This document shows, one piece after another, positions 16,228 to 30,566 of a stretch of DNA of 32,539 nt; position 1 is the first letter of the stretch; each line of letters starts with the position of its first letter. Origin of the DNA: a virus; IMG/VR virus record IMGVR_UViG_3300045789_000822, positions 1-32,539 of that record. One strand, 5' to 3'. The notes under the pieces were generated by a model. It was given only the letters and a program-made list of their open reading frames with translations, ran no database searches and was not told where the DNA came from. A program made the position numbers and the translations under genes.

Positions 16228-16649
16228 TGTATTGCGCCCAGGCTGATCTTGAACGTCGCTACAGTGTTGCTGAGTTAATCCAGCTTACTGATCGCACCGG
16301 CGCAGATGCAGTGAATGCAGATATCGTCGATGAGGCGATTGCCGATGCCGACGCACTGATAGACAGCTATTTGGAAAAGCGCTACCGCGACCGCATGCCA
16401 TTCGATCCGGTGCCGACTGTGCTTGAACGGGTTGCCTGTGTGATTGCGCGCTACAACCTTTACACCAATCACAAACCCGACGAAGTGCAAAAGCCCTACG
16501 ACGAAGTGCTTAAGTTTTTAGAACACGTTGCCGTGGGCAAAGTTAGCCTGGGCGCTGACAGTGAACAGCCACCCATGACTGGTGGTTTACCGCAAATGGT
16601 ATCTGACGGCCGTACTTTTGGTCGCGCTAACAGCAAGGACTTTATCTGA
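16227..16649 (+). CDS. DUF1320 head-tail connector protein (Mu gp36)
   Basis: A 140-residue protein. The YCAQADLERRYSVAELIQLT start and the IADADALIDSYLEKRYRDRM segment are typical of DUF1320, an adaptor-like fold placed at the neck beneath the portal. The C-terminus contains VSLGADSEQ and a RTFGRANSKDF tail also common in the family. It overlaps both neighbours by 1 bp, as expected for stoichiometric connector genes. Confidence 0.86.
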   Translation: MYCAQADLERRYSVAELIQLTDRTGADAVNADIVDEAIADADALIDSYLEKRYRDRMPFDPVPTVLERVACVIARYNLYTNHKPDEVQKPYDEVLKFLEHVAVGKVSLGADSEQPPMTGGLPQMVSDGRTFGRANSKDFI

Positions 16650-17299: not shown

Positions 17300-18250
17300 A
17301 TGACGGCAATACTGCTGAGAGAACAAGAGCAAACCATCGCGCTTAAAGTAGAAAGCACCTACGGCACGGAAGAAGCACCCACTGGAGCCAATGCCTTGTT
17401 AGTGCATGACATTACCGTGCGCGCCCTGGAGGGCGATGTTGCAGAGCTGAATAACATGGTCGGGTTTTTGGGCCATCAAGGCAGTGCTCGAATCAACACG
17501 TATTGCAGTGTTGAATTCAGCATCTACTTAAACGCGTCTGGTGAAGCTGGTGTTGCACCTGCATACAGTGCGGTTTACGAGATCAGTTCACACGCCGGTG
17601 TGGTCACGGCGGACACCTCGGTTGATTACACTCTGGCCACTAGTGACCAGGACAGCGGCACTATCTTCTACATGGTTGGTGAACATAAGCACACCTTGCT
17701 TGGGGTGCGCGGATCTATTTCATTCGGATTTAGTAGCACTGGTTTGCCTATGCTGAAGTTCAGCGGCCTTGGTCTGTATAAGGCCCCAGAAAAAGTGATT
17801 GGCGGGCTGACCGGCATTAACTTTGCGGGTGTGCTCAAGCCGCTGCCCTGGACAAAAGCCACGGTGCAAGACTTTACCCTGCATGGTGTTGCTTTGAACG
17901 GTGCGACGTTCGACTTTGCTCAAGCAATGCCAGCGGAGTACTTGGCGCTTATTGGTCAAGAAGAAATAGTGCAGTCCAGCCGCAAATCCACCATGAGCGT
18001 GAAATTCCGTGAGGAAGATGTGGGCGTAGACAACTGGTGGGAAATCGCCCGCGCCAACACCGTTGACGAATTCAGCATGCAGCACGGCATTGATGTGACT
18101 CATGACGGCCGGATCTTCCAGTTTGCGGCTCCTGCAGTTGAGGTGGCAAACGTGGAGCGAGGTTTTGAGAAAGGCATTGCGATGCTGACATTGAGTTGCA
18201 ATGTGATCGCTACGGCAAAAGGTAACGACTACACCTTCGCGCATTTGTAA
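17300..18250 (+). CDS. major tail tube protein (siphovirus type)
   Basis: A 316-residue beta-rich protein. The LLREQEQTIALKVESTYGTE start, the AELNNMVGFLGHQGS and GVRGSISFGFSSTGLPML-F-GLGLY segments, and a closing IAMLTLSCNVIATAKGNDY are the pattern of long phage tail tube proteins. It would polymerise into the flexible non-contractile tube. No sheath protein gene is seen next to it, so the phage is siphovirus-like rather than Mu-like in tail type. Its stop overlaps the next ATG (TAATG). Confidence 0.75.
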   Translation: MTAILLREQEQTIALKVESTYGTEEAPTGANALLVHDITVRALEGDVAELNNMVGFLGHQGSARINTYCSVEFSIYLNASGEAGVAPAYSAVYEISSHAGVVTADTSVDYTLATSDQDSGTIFYMVGEHKHTLLGVRGSISFGFSSTGLPMLKFSGLGLYKAPEKVIGGLTGINFAGVLKPLPWTKATVQDFTLHGVALNGATFDFAQAMPAEYLALIGQEEIVQSSRKSTMSVKFREEDVGVDNWWEIARANTVDEFSMQHGIDVTHDGRIFQFAAPAVEVANVERGFEKGIAMLTLSCNVIATAKGNDYTFAHL

Positions 18251-18456
18251 TGCGGCGTGCAGGCTTGGTTTTAGGGGTGGCACTGATGGCAGCTTCAGCG
18301 CCACCCGCTATTCATTACCGGATGGAGCGTGAACCGCTTTGGTATTACCCGGATCACGCCCGCCGCATACCGATTAGACGTAAACAAAAAGCGAACCGCA
18401 TGGCTAAAGCAGTGCGAAAAGCACAGCGGCAAGCGCGGCGATTAAACAGGCATTAA
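18250..18456 (+). CDS. 68-residue small basic protein, unknown
   Basis: A short protein with an N-terminal hydrophobic stretch (AGLVLGVALMAASAPPA), a short aromatic part (PLWYYPDHARR), and a very basic tail (KANRMAKAVRKAQRQARRLN). The ATG overlaps the tail tube stop, so it is probably translated by coupling. It may be a membrane-anchored or nucleic-acid-binding peptide. No family is recognised. Confidence 0.55.
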   Translation: MRRAGLVLGVALMAASAPPAIHYRMEREPLWYYPDHARRIPIRRKQKANRMAKAVRKAQRQARRLNRH

Positions 18457-18485: not shown

Positions 18486-18974
18486 ATGAACAAAGCGAAT
18501 TCAGGTTTTTCGATCAAATTGTTAAAAAGCTATCACTGGCCGGTAGATGTAAAAGTGCCAGTGATGAATGCCGACGGTGAAGGCGAATTTGACACCCATC
18601 GTTTTACTGGTCACTTCAAACATTTGTCTAACGCAGAAGCGAATGCGCTGCTGGCCAAAGCGCAGGAAAAAATAGATCAGTTCAAGGCTGAGTCAGAAAC
18701 AAGTGACGTCTCTGCTTTGCGCACCTCTGAAGTTATTGCCAATCATCAAATCGAATTGTATGCCGACATCTGGCTTGGCTGGGGTGAGGATCTGACCGGT
18801 GAAGACGGACAGCCATTGTCCTATAGCGAAGAGGTGAAGCTGCAGCTGCTCGGCCAGAAGATGATTCGCGAAGCGGTGATGAAAGCCCACCAGGAAAGTC
18901 AGGGAGGTGAAGAAGCACGCCTAAAAAACTCCGCGACCTTGCCCGTGGTTGGGCAAGCGGGTGGCGAGAACTAA
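18486..18974 (+). CDS. tail assembly chaperone (zero-frame product)
   Basis: A 162-residue protein in the gpG position between tail tube and tape measure. It begins SGFSIKLLKSYHWPVDVKVPV, has an FTGHFKHLSNAEANALLAK region and an IWLGWGEDLTGEDGQPL segment typical of tail chaperones. Near its 3' end (18923-18929) is an A AAA AAC slippery site in the right frame for -1 slippage, so some ribosomes make a fusion with the following frame. The short zero-frame tail after the slip is NSATLPVVGQAGGEN. Confidence 0.78.
   Translation: MNKANSGFSIKLLKSYHWPVDVKVPVMNADGEGEFDTHRFTGHFKHLSNAEANALLAKAQEKIDQFKAESETSDVSALRTSEVIANHQIELYADIWLGWGEDLTGEDGQPLSYSEEVKLQLLGQKMIREAVMKAHQESQGGEEARLKNSATLPVVGQAGGEN
18901..18957 (+). 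promoter_or_regulatory. programmed -1 ribosomal frameshift signal
   Basis: Three elements stand in order. The first is an internal Shine-Dalgarno, AGGGAGGTGA at 18901-18910. Twelve nt later comes the heptamer A AAA AAC at 18923-18929, read as CTA AAA AAC in the zero frame. After 8 nt there is a perfect 7-bp hairpin, CTTGCCC (18938-18944) with GGGCAAG (18951-18957) and loop GTGGTT. This is the same order and spacing as in the dnaX frameshift signal. Slippage to -1 continues to 19351 and gives a fusion of about 288 residues. Confidence 0.85.
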
Positions 18975-18991
18975 ATGGCAATTGGCGCACC

Positions 18992-19351
18992 GTGTCTGAC
19001 ACCGGCCGTGTGCGCGAGCAGTACCGAAAATTAGGGGCAAGTGAAGAAGACCTTGCCTGGCTGGATCAGGAGGATGAAGTCGCCAGGGAAGGCATTTTAA
19101 TCATGGAGTGCAACTGGCCGGTGTTTAGTTTGTTCCTTGCTTGCAGTCGGCAATGGGACAGCCTGATTAGCCCGCTAGGCGAAGTGATAAGAATGGGGAT
19201 GCGTTGGGATCAAGTAGAAGTACGCGCACGCCACATGCCGGAATGCCGCGCCCTTGACGAAGAAGATACAGACCAGCTTTGGCGAGACATTACGGTTTTA
19301 CAAAATCATGCCCTGGAAGCATTTGCAGAGTTGAGAGATGAGCAACGTTAA
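18992..19351 (+). CDS. DUF1799-like second tail chaperone segment (-1 frame extension)
   Basis: A 119-residue frame when counted from GTG 18992, but that start has no ribosome binding site, and the frame is open back to 18911. It is most likely expressed as the C-terminal part of a fusion after -1 slippage at 18929. The segment ILIMECNWPVFSLFLACSRQW followed by IRMGMRWDQVEVRAR fits DUF1799, the usual frameshift partner of tail chaperones. The longer fusion would bind the tape measure, as gpGT does in lambda. Its stop overlaps the tape measure ATG at 19338. Confidence 0.78.
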   Translation: MSDTGRVREQYRKLGASEEDLAWLDQEDEVAREGILIMECNWPVFSLFLACSRQWDSLISPLGEVIRMGMRWDQVEVRARHMPECRALDEEDTDQLWRDITVLQNHALEAFAELRDEQR

Positions 19352-22300
19352 ATTTGGACTACAGCTTGAACTCAAAGGCGACCAGCTTGTTGTGCGCGGT
19401 CTGGATGGCACGCGCACTGCTGTTAACAATTTAGAGCGTGATGTAAATAGTAATACCCGTTCATCTGTTGCTGCCTCTCAGACAAATCGCGAGCTTGCTA
19501 CCTCGTTTAATTCTGTAAGCAGTCAGGCGCGGGCATTTGGCGGCGTGCTTGCGGCCATTGGTGTGTACCGAATTGGCAGCGATGCTATTTCTAGCATAGG
19601 CAATTTTGAGTACTCGATTGCTGGTGTGAAAGCGGTGACCGGCGCTACCCGCGACGAGCTTATTGAAATGACGGCCGTTGCAAAAGAGCTTGGCTCAACC
19701 ACTAAATTCAGCGCTAGCCAAGCAGCTGAAGGTATGCGCTTTTTGGGTATGGCTGGATTTGAAACTAATGAAATAATCTTAGCAATGCCGGCAGCGTTAA
19801 ACCTAGCCGCTGCTGCAGGTTTAGAACTGGGTGCTGCAGCTGACATTACCAGTAACATTATGTCGGCATTTAATGTAGAGGCTTCGCGTACTACCGAGAT
19901 TGCCGACGCATTAGCGACCACCGCTGCTAGTGCTAATACTGATATCTCGCAAATGGGCGAGGCCATGAAGTTTGTAGGCCCTGTAGCAGCTGCGCTTGAT
20001 ATCTCAATGCAGGACTCTGCAGCTGCGATCGGCGCTTTGTCTAACGCAGGCATACAAGGTGGCAGCGCCGGTACCGGCCTTCGCCGAGTGCTATCGTCGT
20101 TAGCGAATCCGACGAAAGAAGCGACTGGATTACTGACCTCAATGGGTTTGTCTATTGATGAGCTTAATCCTAAAACCCACAGCATTACCGAGGTGGTTAC
20201 TAAACTTAAAAACGCTAATCTCAGTGCTGCGGATGCGTTAACTATTTTTGGTGATCGCGGTGGCCCAGCAATACTCGCGCTCACAGAACAGATCCCACAG
20301 CTTGAATCCCTCACCCAAAAAATTAACGACAGCGAAGGTGCGGCTAAGCGTATGGCCGATACGCTTTCTGATAATTTGAAAGGCGATTGGCTGGAATTCT
20401 TGTCATCTGTTGAAGGTGTGTTCTTGGCGATCGGCGATGCCGGTGCGTTGGATAATATGCGCGGCGGTGTGCAAGATTTGACGGGCTTGGTCAGAAGCCT
20501 TGGCGATAACCTTGATACTGTCGGTGATGTTACAACGATTGTCGCTGGAGTAATTGGCGGTAGGTTAGTTGCTGCTTTAGTAACTGCTGCGGCAGGGGCT
20601 AATGCAAAGTGGGTAGCTAACAATAAGCTATTAGCGTCTGAAGTAGCCCTGGCTAAATCGGCCCTTCATCGTGCTGTGCAAGATCAGCTCGCCGCCCAGC
20701 GTTCGCTTGCTGTTGCCAGTACCTTTAATCTTCGGGCCGCTGCAGGAACACGTTTGGCTGCAGCTAATATGCGGGTTGTTAGCACCCAAGCCGCTGTCAA
20801 CTCAACGACTGCAGCTTACGCGGGGGCGGCAACGGCCGCTGGTATAGCCGCTCGTGGATTGAATGGTGCTCTTGCTTTAGTTGGTGGCCCAATCGGTTTG
20901 GCAACTTTGGCTGCAGTTGGGATCTACACCCTGCAGGATAACCTTGGTTTAGTCTCGGCCCCGGCGGAGCTGGCGACATCTAATATCAATAAGCTGTCTA
21001 AATCACTTGAAGGCTTGGGTGAAGCGCAATTAGAGCAAACGATTGCATCAATGACCGCCAAGTTAATGGAGCTACAAGACGCATCGGCGGAGGCAGATCG
21101 GCAAGCACAGGAGTCAATAGCAAGCCAGTCAACACTGGATAGGCTGAACCCGTGGAATGACACGATTGATGTCATTAAAGATGCGACATCGGCAACGTCA
21201 GAAGTAACAGATCAAATGAAGCGGCTTAAGGTTGTTGAGCAAGCATTGTTTGATTTGCGCAATAAAAATAATAATAAACCTGTTGGTGGCATCGATGGCG
21301 AATCTGCAGGTGAAATTGATAGCGCCACTGAAGCATTAATACAAAAAATCCAAGTAGTTGCTCAAGAAAATACTCTGTTGGCATTGGGCTACGAACTAGA
21401 AGACGCAAAATTCATCGCCGCATATTCACATGCCGACACGCTGACTCAAGCGCTGATGCGCCAGCAGCGTGAGCAGAAAGGTATTCTTGACGGTTATCAA
21501 TCTGAGGCCGATGTTTTGGCTGATGTAGAAGCGCGGCAGGAAAAGGCATCTGAAAAAGCGATGGCGTTGGCAAAAGCTAATGAAGGCGCAATGGATGCCT
21601 TCTTAAATGCCAGTATTGGCGACGGCCTAGTTGATGGCTTTAACGATGCATCTAAAGCATTGGCTACGTTTGTTGATGGCTTTGGTGAACTGATTAATGT
21701 TCAGGAAATTTATAATAAAGCGCTGCAAGATCCTAAGGCCGATGAAAAGAAACGTGGCGAAGCCGCTATTAAATATCAGACCGCGCAAGTTGGTTTGTAC
21801 GGCGACATGGCCGCATCGAGCAAACAGTTTTTTGATGAGGGTTCTAGCGGCTACAAAAATCTTGAAAAAGCTGAGCAGGTGTTTAGGGCTGCAGAGTTAG
21901 CATTTGCTATTAGCAATTTGGGCGTGAAACTCGGCTTAATTGAAGCCGAGACAGTTGCTCACGTTGCGGCTGACGGTGTTAAAGCCGCCTCGTCTGGCGT
22001 GGCTGCTGCTGTATCGTCGATGGTCGGCTTACCATTCCCTCTTAACATCGCCGCATTAGGTGCCACGATTGCAGCGATCGGCGCTTTAGGCGTCAGTATT
22101 TTTGGCGGCTCTGGTGGCGGTGGCGGCCTATCATCATCTGAGCGGGCTCAGCAAAGTCAAGGCACTGGTGGCGTGCTTGGAGATGCATCAGCGAAATCAG
22201 AAAGTGCGAGCAAAGCATTAGCGCTGATGGAAGATCATCTGTCTCAAGGTTTGCAAGTCAGCACAGGTATGCTCATTGAGCTGCGCACGCTTAATGCAAA

Positions 22301-24179
22301 CATTGCTGGGCTGGGTAATTTGCTTGGACGCCAACTTGATTTCGCTGGTGGCTTAGTCGATGTGCAAACTGGATATTCGCAAGGCGGTGCTGGTGATGCT
22401 GCATATAACGCGGGAATGCTTGGGGTTGGTTTAGGTGGTGTTGGCGCAGTCGGCGTACTTGGTCTTAAGGCGCTGGGCTTAGATGAAGAATTTACTAAAA
22501 TAATTGACGAGATTTCGTTCGGCGCTTTCAGCAGTATTGCATCTGGTATCAGCAGTAAAAAGTCTACTAAAGTTGACGAGGGTTTGCAGATCCTTGGTGG
22601 CAACGTAGCTGACATTATCGATGGCGGTATTGTTGACGCTTTTGCTTACGCAGAGATACGCACCAAAAAACGCAAGCTGGGCAGTGGCACCAAAACTAGT
22701 TACAGCACCAAAACTGAGTCGCTAGGGGCTGAGATATCAGGCCAGTTCGGACAAGTTATCGGTAGCATTTATGAGTCTGTATTTGCGGCCGTTGATCTGC
22801 TAGGAGTTGGAAGTACTGCTGGTCTTAATCAGTTTGCTGGTCTGAGTATTTCAACCAAGGGCTTATCAGCTGAAGACGCGCAGAAAGAAATTGAGTCTGT
22901 ATTAAGTGCCTTTGCTGATGATGTGGCCTTATCTGTTATACCGTCACTCATTAATTTTCAAAATGTTGGCGAGGGCTTGTTTGAAACCTTGGCCCGTGTT
23001 GCCACGCAAACAGTTATTTTTAACGACGCTGCTGCGACATTGGGTTTGTCATTTGCTGGATGGTCTGCTGAGCAAACCTTGGAAATAGCAGATGGCTTAA
23101 CAACTGCTGCGGGTGGGCTTGAACAGTTTGCTAGCAACGTTAGCAGCTTTACTGACTTTATACTCACTGACGCCGAGAAGTTTGCTCAGACCCAAGGCTA
23201 TGTTGCTAGCCTGTTTGACCGACTTGATGTTGCGCTACCGCCAAGTACTCAAGCATTAAAAGATTACGTGGCTGGCTTAGATTTATCTACGCTTGCACAC
23301 CAAGAAGCCTTTACCGCGCTCACTGGTGCCAGCGATCTATTGGATGATTACTACACCCAATTAGAAGACTTTGCTGAATCGGCCTATTCCTTTGATACCG
23401 ATTTAGGCATTGCTGATGGCATGCAGCCATTGCGCGATGCGCTGGCCGCTGTTGGCTTGAATATCGATATCGTTGAGACGGCCGCACAAGGCGGCATTGA
23501 AGCACTGCAGGCGCTGTTTGGCGGCCTGACCGATGTGCAAAAAGCGGGGCTTGAACCATTCACCGATGAACTCTTGGGCATGGTGGACAGCGTTGATGAA
23601 TTGTCTGCGGCCGCTCAACGTCTGCGCGACTTTGCGATCGGCGCTAGCAATGCCTTGCTCTCTCCTGAAAAGCAATTAGCTGCAAGCCAGGCTGATTATC
23701 AACAACTGATTAATTCAATCGTAAACGGCGATTTAAGCCGCGTTAATGACGTGGTGAATGTTGGCCAAAGTGTTATCAGTCAAGCAGCCAATACAGCAGA
23801 AACTGAGCTGGACTATAAACGCATCGTCGCGTCAGTTTCATCAGCTGCGTTTTCAGTTGCCGATTTGATCGATCCCCGATCGGCAATCGATATCGCCGGT
23901 GAGCAGCTCGACGTCCTCAAAGATATTCGCACCCAACTTTCTGGCGGTGCGATCGCCATACCGCAATCACAGATAGATACCTCAGGCGCTGCCCGGATTA
24001 CGTTTGGTAGCGACCCTGAGTTGCTGGGTGTAATGCGCCGTGTTGACGATAAGCTTGCGCAGTTACTCAACGATCAGCGAGATGGACAAAACGCGATCGC
24101 GGGTCACACAGGAAAGATGGCCAATTACTTTGAGCGCTGGAACGGTAACAACGCGATGTACATCAAGGAGCGAGTATGA
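19338..24179 (+). CDS. tail tape measure protein (TP901 type)
   Basis: A 1613-residue protein that sets tail length. The core domain lies at about residues 75-270: AVKAVTGATRDELIEMTAVA, LGSTTKFSASQAAEGMRFLG, SANTDISQMGEAMKFVGP and GIQGGSAGTGLRRVLSSLA. Hydrophobic segments occur near 390-420, 500-530 and 885-930 (ending GVSIFGGSGGGGG), which may form the channel through the inner membrane. The rest is helical. At the usual 0.15 nm per residue the tail would be about 240 nm. It is the largest gene in the window. Confidence 0.9.
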   Translation: MSNVKFGLQLELKGDQLVVRGLDGTRTAVNNLERDVNSNTRSSVAASQTNRELATSFNSVSSQARAFGGVLAAIGVYRIGSDAISSIGNFEYSIAGVKAVTGATRDELIEMTAVAKELGSTTKFSASQAAEGMRFLGMAGFETNEIILAMPAALNLAAAAGLELGAAADITSNIMSAFNVEASRTTEIADALATTAASANTDISQMGEAMKFVGPVAAALDISMQDSAAAIGALSNAGIQGGSAGTGLRRVLSSLANPTKEATGLLTSMGLSIDELNPKTHSITEVVTKLKNANLSAADALTIFGDRGGPAILALTEQIPQLESLTQKINDSEGAAKRMADTLSDNLKGDWLEFLSSVEGVFLAIGDAGALDNMRGGVQDLTGLVRSLGDNLDTVGDVTTIVAGVIGGRLVAALVTAAAGANAKWVANNKLLASEVALAKSALHRAVQDQLAAQRSLAVASTFNLRAAAGTRLAAANMRVVSTQAAVNSTTAAYAGAATAAGIAARGLNGALALVGGPIGLATLAAVGIYTLQDNLGLVSAPAELATSNINKLSKSLEGLGEAQLEQTIASMTAKLMELQDASAEADRQAQESIASQSTLDRLNPWNDTIDVIKDATSATSEVTDQMKRLKVVEQALFDLRNKNNNKPVGGIDGESAGEIDSATEALIQKIQVVAQENTLLALGYELEDAKFIAAYSHADTLTQALMRQQREQKGILDGYQSEADVLADVEARQEKASEKAMALAKANEGAMDAFLNASIGDGLVDGFNDASKALATFVDGFGELINVQEIYNKALQDPKADEKKRGEAAIKYQTAQVGLYGDMAASSKQFFDEGSSGYKNLEKAEQVFRAAELAFAISNLGVKLGLIEAETVAHVAADGVKAASSGVAAAVSSMVGLPFPLNIAALGATIAAIGALGVSIFGGSGGGGGLSSSERAQQSQGTGGVLGDASAKSESASKALALMEDHLSQGLQVSTGMLIELRTLNANIAGLGNLLGRQLDFAGGLVDVQTGYSQGGAGDAAYNAGMLGVGLGGVGAVGVLGLKALGLDEEFTKIIDEISFGAFSSIASGISSKKSTKVDEGLQILGGNVADIIDGGIVDAFAYAEIRTKKRKLGSGTKTSYSTKTESLGAEISGQFGQVIGSIYESVFAAVDLLGVGSTAGLNQFAGLSISTKGLSAEDAQKEIESVLSAFADDVALSVIPSLINFQNVGEGLFETLARVATQTVIFNDAAATLGLSFAGWSAEQTLEIADGLTTAAGGLEQFASNVSSFTDFILTDAEKFAQTQGYVASLFDRLDVALPPSTQALKDYVAGLDLSTLAHQEAFTALTGASDLLDDYYTQLEDFAESAYSFDTDLGIADGMQPLRDALAAVGLNIDIVETAAQGGIEALQALFGGLTDVQKAGLEPFTDELLGMVDSVDELSAAAQRLRDFAIGASNALLSPEKQLAASQADYQQLINSIVNGDLSRVNDVVNVGQSVISQAANTAETELDYKRIVASVSSAAFSVADLIDPRSAIDIAGEQLDVLKDIRTQLSGGAIAIPQSQIDTSGAARITFGSDPELLGVMRRVDDKLAQLLNDQRDGQNAIAGHTGKMANYFERWNGNNAMYIKERV

Positions 24180-29464: not shown

Positions 29465-29674
29465 ATGCAGGAAATACGATGTAGCCGGTGTAATCGGTTG
29501 CTTGTAAAAGCGATATTTACCGTCATTGAGGCCAAGTGCCCTCGGTGCAAGTTCTTTAACAATATGAGTGCCACGAGCACCGCGAGCGCCCAGAGCGCCA
29601 CGGAAGGTGCCCGTCATGTTCAAATTACACAACAGGGACTGTCTGGCCGTATTGGCCGAGATGGAATCAAATAG
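29465..29674 (+). CDS. com: Com-like zinc-binding translational regulator
   Basis: A 69-residue protein. MQEIRCSRCNRLLVKAIF and IEAKCPRCKFFN carry the four zinc cysteines C6, C9, C25 and C28 of the Mu Com family. In Mu, Com binds mom mRNA and opens its ribosome binding site. Here the methyltransferase ATG at 29616 lies inside com, 59 bp before its stop, so the same kind of control is likely. The ATG at 29465 follows GGAGG by 5 nt. The frame is also open upstream to 29399, but that part looks non-coding. Confidence 0.85.
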   Translation: MQEIRCSRCNRLLVKAIFTVIEAKCPRCKFFNNMSATSTASAQSATEGARHVQITQQGLSGRIGRDGIK

Positions 29675-30566
29675 CGTCGATCTGGTAGCGACAGACCCGC
29701 CTTACTTCCGAGTGAAAGCTGATGCGTGGGATAATCAGTGGGCAAGTCAGGAAGATTTTTTAGACTGGCTTGAATCGGTGGTCATCGAGTGCGTTCGCGT
29801 TCTTAAGCCAACCGGCGGTCTTTATATGTTTATGGGGCCAAAAATGGCTGCCAGTGTCGAGCGAATGATTGCAAAGCACATGGTGGTCGAAAATCACATT
29901 GTGTGGATCAAGCCCACAGGCATGCATAAGAGGCAACATCGTGCCAGCCTACGACGTTACTTCCCCGCCACCGAGCGCATTATATTTGCGACCCAGCGGG
30001 AGTACTCCGAAGCCAAAGCGCAGCATGCGGCAATAGCTGAGGCTTGCGAGCCGGTGATTATCTACTTGAGGGATGCGCTCGCGGAAAGCGGTTTAAGTCA
30101 GTCAGACGTAGATCGAGCGCTAGGTGTTCAAATGGCAGGACACTGGTTTGGTCGATCGCAGTGGCGGCTGCCAACTGAGGCGCAATATGAGCAGCTTCAA
30201 CAGTTGTTTAACGGCGGTTTAAATCGGTCTTATTCAGAGGTTAAGGCCCAGTGTGATGCCCTCATAAATGATGCGACCAAACCGGCCAAGCGGTATTTTG
30301 ACCTAGACGGCCGTGATTGGTTTACTGATGCGTGGGTATGCCAGCCGGTGCAATTCTATCCAGGCAAACACCCGTGCGAAAAGCCCCTTGCGATGATGGA
30401 GCATATAGTTACCGCCAGCACGCGGAAGGGCGAATTGGTACTAGATCCGTTTATGGGCGGCGGGACGACTGGTGTGGCATCGATCAGGACTGGCAGAAGC
30501 TTCATTGGTTGCGAGATGGAAAAGGCTAATTTCGATACTGCAGAAGCGAGGTTGGAGGCTGTTTAG
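29616..30566 (+). CDS. beta-class site-specific DNA methyltransferase
   Basis: A 316-residue methylase. Catalytic motif IV is DPPY at residues 27-30, and the S-adenosylmethionine site DPFMGGGTTG is near the end (277-286). This motif order marks the beta class, which makes N6-methyladenine or N4-methylcytosine. The middle (about 125-215) is the likely target recognition part, including SDVDRALGVQMAGHWFGRSQ. The ATG at 29616 has GGAAGG 8 nt upstream. It takes the place of mom at the phage right end, probably protecting phage DNA from host restriction. It ends 50 bp before the predicted phage terminus. Confidence 0.88.
   Translation: MFKLHNRDCLAVLAEMESNSVDLVATDPPYFRVKADAWDNQWASQEDFLDWLESVVIECVRVLKPTGGLYMFMGPKMAASVERMIAKHMVVENHIVWIKPTGMHKRQHRASLRRYFPATERIIFATQREYSEAKAQHAAIAEACEPVIIYLRDALAESGLSQSDVDRALGVQMAGHWFGRSQWRLPTEAQYEQLQQLFNGGLNRSYSEVKAQCDALINDATKPAKRYFDLDGRDWFTDAWVCQPVQFYPGKHPCEKPLAMMEHIVTASTRKGELVLDPFMGGGTTGVASIRTGRSFIGCEMEKANFDTAEARLEAV

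Follow-up and report, generated by a model that had tools for sequence, protein, structure and literature searches.

Does the overlapping gene pair in the tail module of this virus encode a fusion protein made by a programmed -1 ribosomal frameshift, and which of the sequences around the putative slip site contribute to it? The window, that is the whole stretch of DNA analysed, comprises 32,539 bases (positions 1 to 32,539 of IMG/VR virus record IMGVR_UViG_3300045789_000822) and represents a Mu-like transposable phage whose tail module is of the siphophage type. Among its head genes, portal, F, protease I, gp27 and gp36 are Mu-like; the major head protein shares 65-66 % identity with its counterpart in D3112-type Pseudomonas phages. 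A DNA methylase gene of the N6_N4_Mtase family (29568-30566) lies near the right end, downstream of the tail genes.

Overlapping G and T frames in the tail module

The tail region starts with the terminator gene at 16649, followed by the tail tube gene (17300-18250), an ORF of 68 amino acids without a PHROG match in the interval between tail tube and chaperone (18250-18456), the overlapping chaperone frames G and T, and the tape measure gene (19338-24179) as the next gene after the chaperone. The G/T pair thus sits between the tail tube and tape measure genes. The G part is a plus-strand zero-frame ORF of 162 amino acids (18486-18974, with its stop codon at 18972-18974) that matches phrog_569 (E 1.5e-11) and, weakly and under the cutoff, Phage_TAC_4. 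The T part, in the -1 frame of the same strand (18929-19351, 140 codons plus stop), matches phrog_680 (E 2.7e-9) and DUF1799, the latter at E 1.6e-4 and 22.3 bits, just under the Pfam cutoff of 26 bits. By profile, both parts therefore belong to the phrog_569/phrog_680 (DUF1799) chaperone family. PHROGs 569 and 680 both carry the label 'tail length tape measure protein', although their matches here are the chaperone G and T parts. A search with the T frame of an annotated phage collection returned no match, solved structures yielded no useful match by sequence, and Rfam none at all.

Three elements of a dnaX-like signal had been predicted from the sequence and all are present at the predicted places and in the predicted frame: the Shine-Dalgarno (SD)-like run AGGGAGGTGA (18901-18910), the heptamer A AAA AAC (18923-18929), read in the zero frame as CTA AAA AAC, and a 7-bp stem (18938-18957). 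The -1 frame was likewise correctly described as lacking a usable start and being open from just before the slip. It opens at 18911, directly after the TGA that ends the SD-like run, and continues to a stop at 19349-19351; its earliest common start is a GTG at 18992, 63 nt beyond the heptamer and without a Shine-Dalgarno sequence. The predicted products have the lengths previously given, 162 amino acids for the zero frame and 288 for the fusion via the -1 frame, with G residues 1-148 common to both.

It is very probable that the tail assembly chaperone gene of this Mu-like transposable phage carries a programmed -1 ribosomal frameshift of the G/GT type, joining the G part to the T part as the original prediction had proposed from the sequence. 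Most ribosomes would stay in the zero frame through A AAA AAC, reach the stop at 18972-18974 and release the 162-amino acid G protein, while a minority would slip back by one base at the heptamer and translate on to 19351, yielding a 288-amino acid GT fusion. By analogy with lambda, many copies of G and few of GT may then cover the tape measure protein and bring in the tail tube protein. The sequence comparisons show the site, its frame, its family-wide conservation and, within the window's own clade, that of the SD-like element; slippage itself, its frequency and the functions of G and GT are inferred.

Conservation of the slip site

The heptamer is strongly supported. Its two main types in the family, A AAA AAC and G GGA AAC, together occur six times in any frame within the whole 32.5-kb window. 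Three distinct close relatives (L002, L006 and L037, with G proteins 88, 68 and 49 % identical to that of the window) show G homology ending and T homology starting at the same base, at the heptamer, and with the same -1 offset. A AAA AAC is kept in L002 and L006, while L037, the most distant of the three, has G GGA AAC, another valid slip site, at the same position. Homology of the T part starts at the first codon past the heptamer, 21 codons upstream of any common start codon: LRDLARGWASGWRE, immediately past the slip, lies ahead of every common start and is nevertheless conserved in the -1 frame, whereas the zero-frame tail over the same bases shows no conservation.

Scans of viral and genome collections with single proteins and small alignments gave only a handful of close relatives, so we searched whole genomes with the phrog_680 profile, which knows the T part only. 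Together with the window clade and named phages, the survey yielded 68 T proteins, which at 60 % identity group into 49 clusters. A heptamer of the form X XXY YYZ, conserved in homologues, was found in frame in the overlap: 61 of 62 loci had an in-frame heptamer at the junction, with the upstream open frame in the +1 relation (A AAA AAC in 48, G GGA AAC in 12 and A AAA AAG in one). The single locus without it, L061, is rearranged, and no G part can be recognised ahead of its T part. An in-frame heptamer is also present in VarioGold, Rhodobacter RC1 and Rhodovulum RS1 and in Synechococcus S-CBS1, that is, in all named family phages checked. Related phages lacking the heptamer would have spoken against the original prediction, and this search did not refute it.

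The zero-frame stop is flush with the heptamer in 48 of the 61 loci and one codon later in 7 more, an excess over the 3 in 16 expected if the next base is T (p ~1e-24, uncorrected for kinship or codon preference). None of the window clade, consisting of the window, L002, L006 and L037, has a flush stop; their zero-frame stops lie 42 or 63 nt further on, and the clade has lost the flush stop. It is likewise absent from L095 and L117, the nearest surveyed relatives of the clade. Among head-gene relatives of the window (L009, L011-L014, L017-L019) we also observed, downstream, a probable further chaperone frameshift: an in-frame A AAA AAG after which the zero frame stops within 39-45 nt and the -1 frame spans about 75 amino acids.

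Could T instead be a separate gene, with its own start or translationally coupled to G, and no fusion be made? Public records do present it in this way: the VarioGold chaperone and DUF1799 genes (L123, OP296522) are annotated apart, with T starting 26 nt past the G stop, and the genes of RC1 (L041) and RS1 (L044) adjoin, while in the window the GTG at 18992 is available. However this GTG, besides having no Shine-Dalgarno sequence, is not matched in position in L006 or L037, and protein conservation begins 21 codons upstream of it. In RC1 and RS1 the annotated T start is a CTG where the heptamer itself ends, and between the two VarioGold genes lies an in-frame A AAA AAC TAA that is left unused; all three phages carry an in-frame slip heptamer immediately before the G stop. 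Nor would a separate gene give any reason for 61 of 62 loci to carry the heptamer in frame. On the relatives' junctions, the conservation upstream of candidate starts and the heptamer count we reject an independent start of T, which we consider highly improbable. Even less credible is that the fusion arises through slippage of RNA polymerase on the A run rather than of the ribosome. The window does have six consecutive A residues, and A AAA AAC recurs in many relatives, but a run of six A is short for polymerase slippage. L037 and 12 of 61 family loci have G GGA AAC in this position and frame; as this heptamer lacks a long homopolymer, it argues against transcriptional slippage, which we reject on this ground.

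Sequences flanking the heptamer

With ribosomal frameshifting at the heptamer as the preferred reading, the remaining question is whether its flanking sequences matter. AGGGAGGTGA ends 12 nt before the heptamer and forms a predicted anti-SD duplex of -16.5 kcal/mol; GGAGGTGA has a single occurrence in the 32.5 kb. The pairing is equally strong in L002 and L037, -12.6 kcal/mol in L006 and -6.9 kcal/mol in dnaX, and the element outscores all other 26-nt windows of its own gene within the clade as well as all other family members. In the window the element is not followed by a start codon at initiation distance and so is no ordinary ribosome-binding site, and the 11-12 nt that separate the pairing run from the heptamer fall within the 9-14 nt described for SD elements stimulating -1 shifts (PMC5009743). 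CAGGGAGG[TC]GAAG is present in all four clade members. The rare glycine codon GGA, which accounts for 10 % of glycines in pooled genes, is invariant in all four phages, and synonymous identity reaches 5/8 in the last eight informative G codons against 6/46 elsewhere (p 0.006; four phages, the stretch having been picked post hoc from the motif). Since the protein sequence SQGGE is itself conserved, the element owes some of its conservation to the protein. An SD-like stimulator is well supported in the window's own four-phage clade only, where it probably increases slippage on a weak heptamer.

Downstream of the heptamer, after a spacer of 8 nt, CTTGCCC (18938-18944) and GGGCAAG (18951-18957) form on the plus strand a perfect 7-bp stem with a 6-nt loop, which lies within a longer fold extending to about 18969 (-22.5 kcal/mol for 18930-18990). 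A perfect 7-bp stem at the same spacing occurs at 0.6 % of window positions and in 8 % of T frames with synonymously shuffled codons. The stem pairs exactly in the window, contains one G-U pair in L002 and is broken by two mismatches in L006 and one in L037, with no covariation of its pairs across these four phages; as a stimulator it is weakly supported. For the wider fold of the window, z is -0.94 relative to dinucleotide shuffles and about -2 relative to synonymous ones. Family-wide, the downstream folds exceed synonymous shuffles in average stability, with a mean z of -1.12 (standard error 0.19, kinship uncorrected), and very strong folds directly past the heptamer were found in L111, L113, L115 and L121 (z -4.6 to -6.2 against synonymous shuffles). 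A stimulating structure downstream of the heptamer is possible, and it may add to slippage.

A frameshift that is real and in which the heptamer alone matters, the SD-like element and hairpin being irrelevant, strikes us as unlikely but worth serious consideration. Certain tailed-phage shifts have been described without stimulators (PMC5009743), the hairpin is unconserved, and the SD-like signal is ordinary in the rest of the family: flush-stop members have a mean anti-SD pairing of -4.6 kcal/mol, and for them a median of 37 % of windows in their own gene pair as well. Against this, the SD-like element of the clade is far beyond the family range, GGA is retained in all four phages despite its rarity, and the family's downstream folds on average exceed those of synonymous shuffles in stability, with kinship uncorrected. 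We tentatively suggest, as a doubtful proposal, that the family ancestrally combined a weak heptamer with a flush stop and that the window clade swapped this stop for a strong SD-like stimulator, the G:GT ratio being held by exchangeable stimulators. The association between an absent flush stop and a stronger SD-like element comes mostly from the window clade (p 0.047 without the clade, kinship uncorrected).

Slippage rate and relation to known systems

High efficiency had been expected of the site on account of its three elements, but this is unsupported, since A AAA AAC slips poorly in E. coli (PMC4066793) and published tail-chaperone frameshifting is low, with a product ratio of about 30:1 in lambda and 6-7 % frameshifting in HK97-like cases (PMC5009743, PMC3711429). 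Slip sites of the AAC type, though poor in E. coli, are probably used by IS elements (PMC4066793). The slippage rate in the window could be very low; the tRNAs of the window's host may differ from those of E. coli.

A close parallel is lambda G/GT and its relatives (Xu, Hendrix and Duda 2004, cited in PMC5009743), which resemble the window in position between tail tube and tape measure genes, in a -1 slip on X XXY YYZ and in a short and a long product. The window differs from lambda in its A AAA AAC heptamer and upstream SD-like element, and Pfam, PHROG and PDB searches detected no sequence kinship of its G and T parts to lambda G or T. For gp18/gp19 of Burkholderia phage KL1 a G GGA AAC directly before a TGA stop has been predicted (PMC3483164); likened by site layout, this heptamer flush with the stop is the commonest arrangement in the surveyed family, whereas the window clade has no stop directly after the heptamer. 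The D3112/PaMx73-type Mu-like Pseudomonas phages share Mu-like head genes, a siphophage tail and a -1 chaperone frameshift with the window, but belong to another chaperone family and use a T TTT TTC slip site (PMC4378225), also encountered in the present analysis, which lies 43 codons from the zero-frame stop. E. coli dnaX, in which the frameshift serves to make two polymerase subunits, has no homology to the window genes. Both sites have an SD-like element, an A-rich heptamer and a stem in the same order and even the same upstream CAGGGAG run, so the dnaX-like order of the original prediction stands; the spacing does not, the shared AGGGAG lying 16 nt from the heptamer here and 10 nt in dnaX, 6 nt longer in the window. 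The heptamer differs too, the window having A AAA AAC in place of the highly slippery A AAA AAG of dnaX.

On this sequence evidence we take the window site to be a real and ordinary G/GT frameshift with an unusual putative upstream stimulator. Tail-chaperone -1 frameshifting is itself a textbook mechanism; within the literature searched, whose journal coverage is incomplete, we found no description of DUF1799 as a frameshifted T part. The family offers a case in which phages that have diverged widely retain one slip site amid changing surroundings. Nearly all of the loci use heptamers ending in AAC, which are poor in E. coli, and this fits a need to keep the ratio of the two products low and steady. 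The survey also aids annotation, since some such T genes are annotated separately with doubtful starts.
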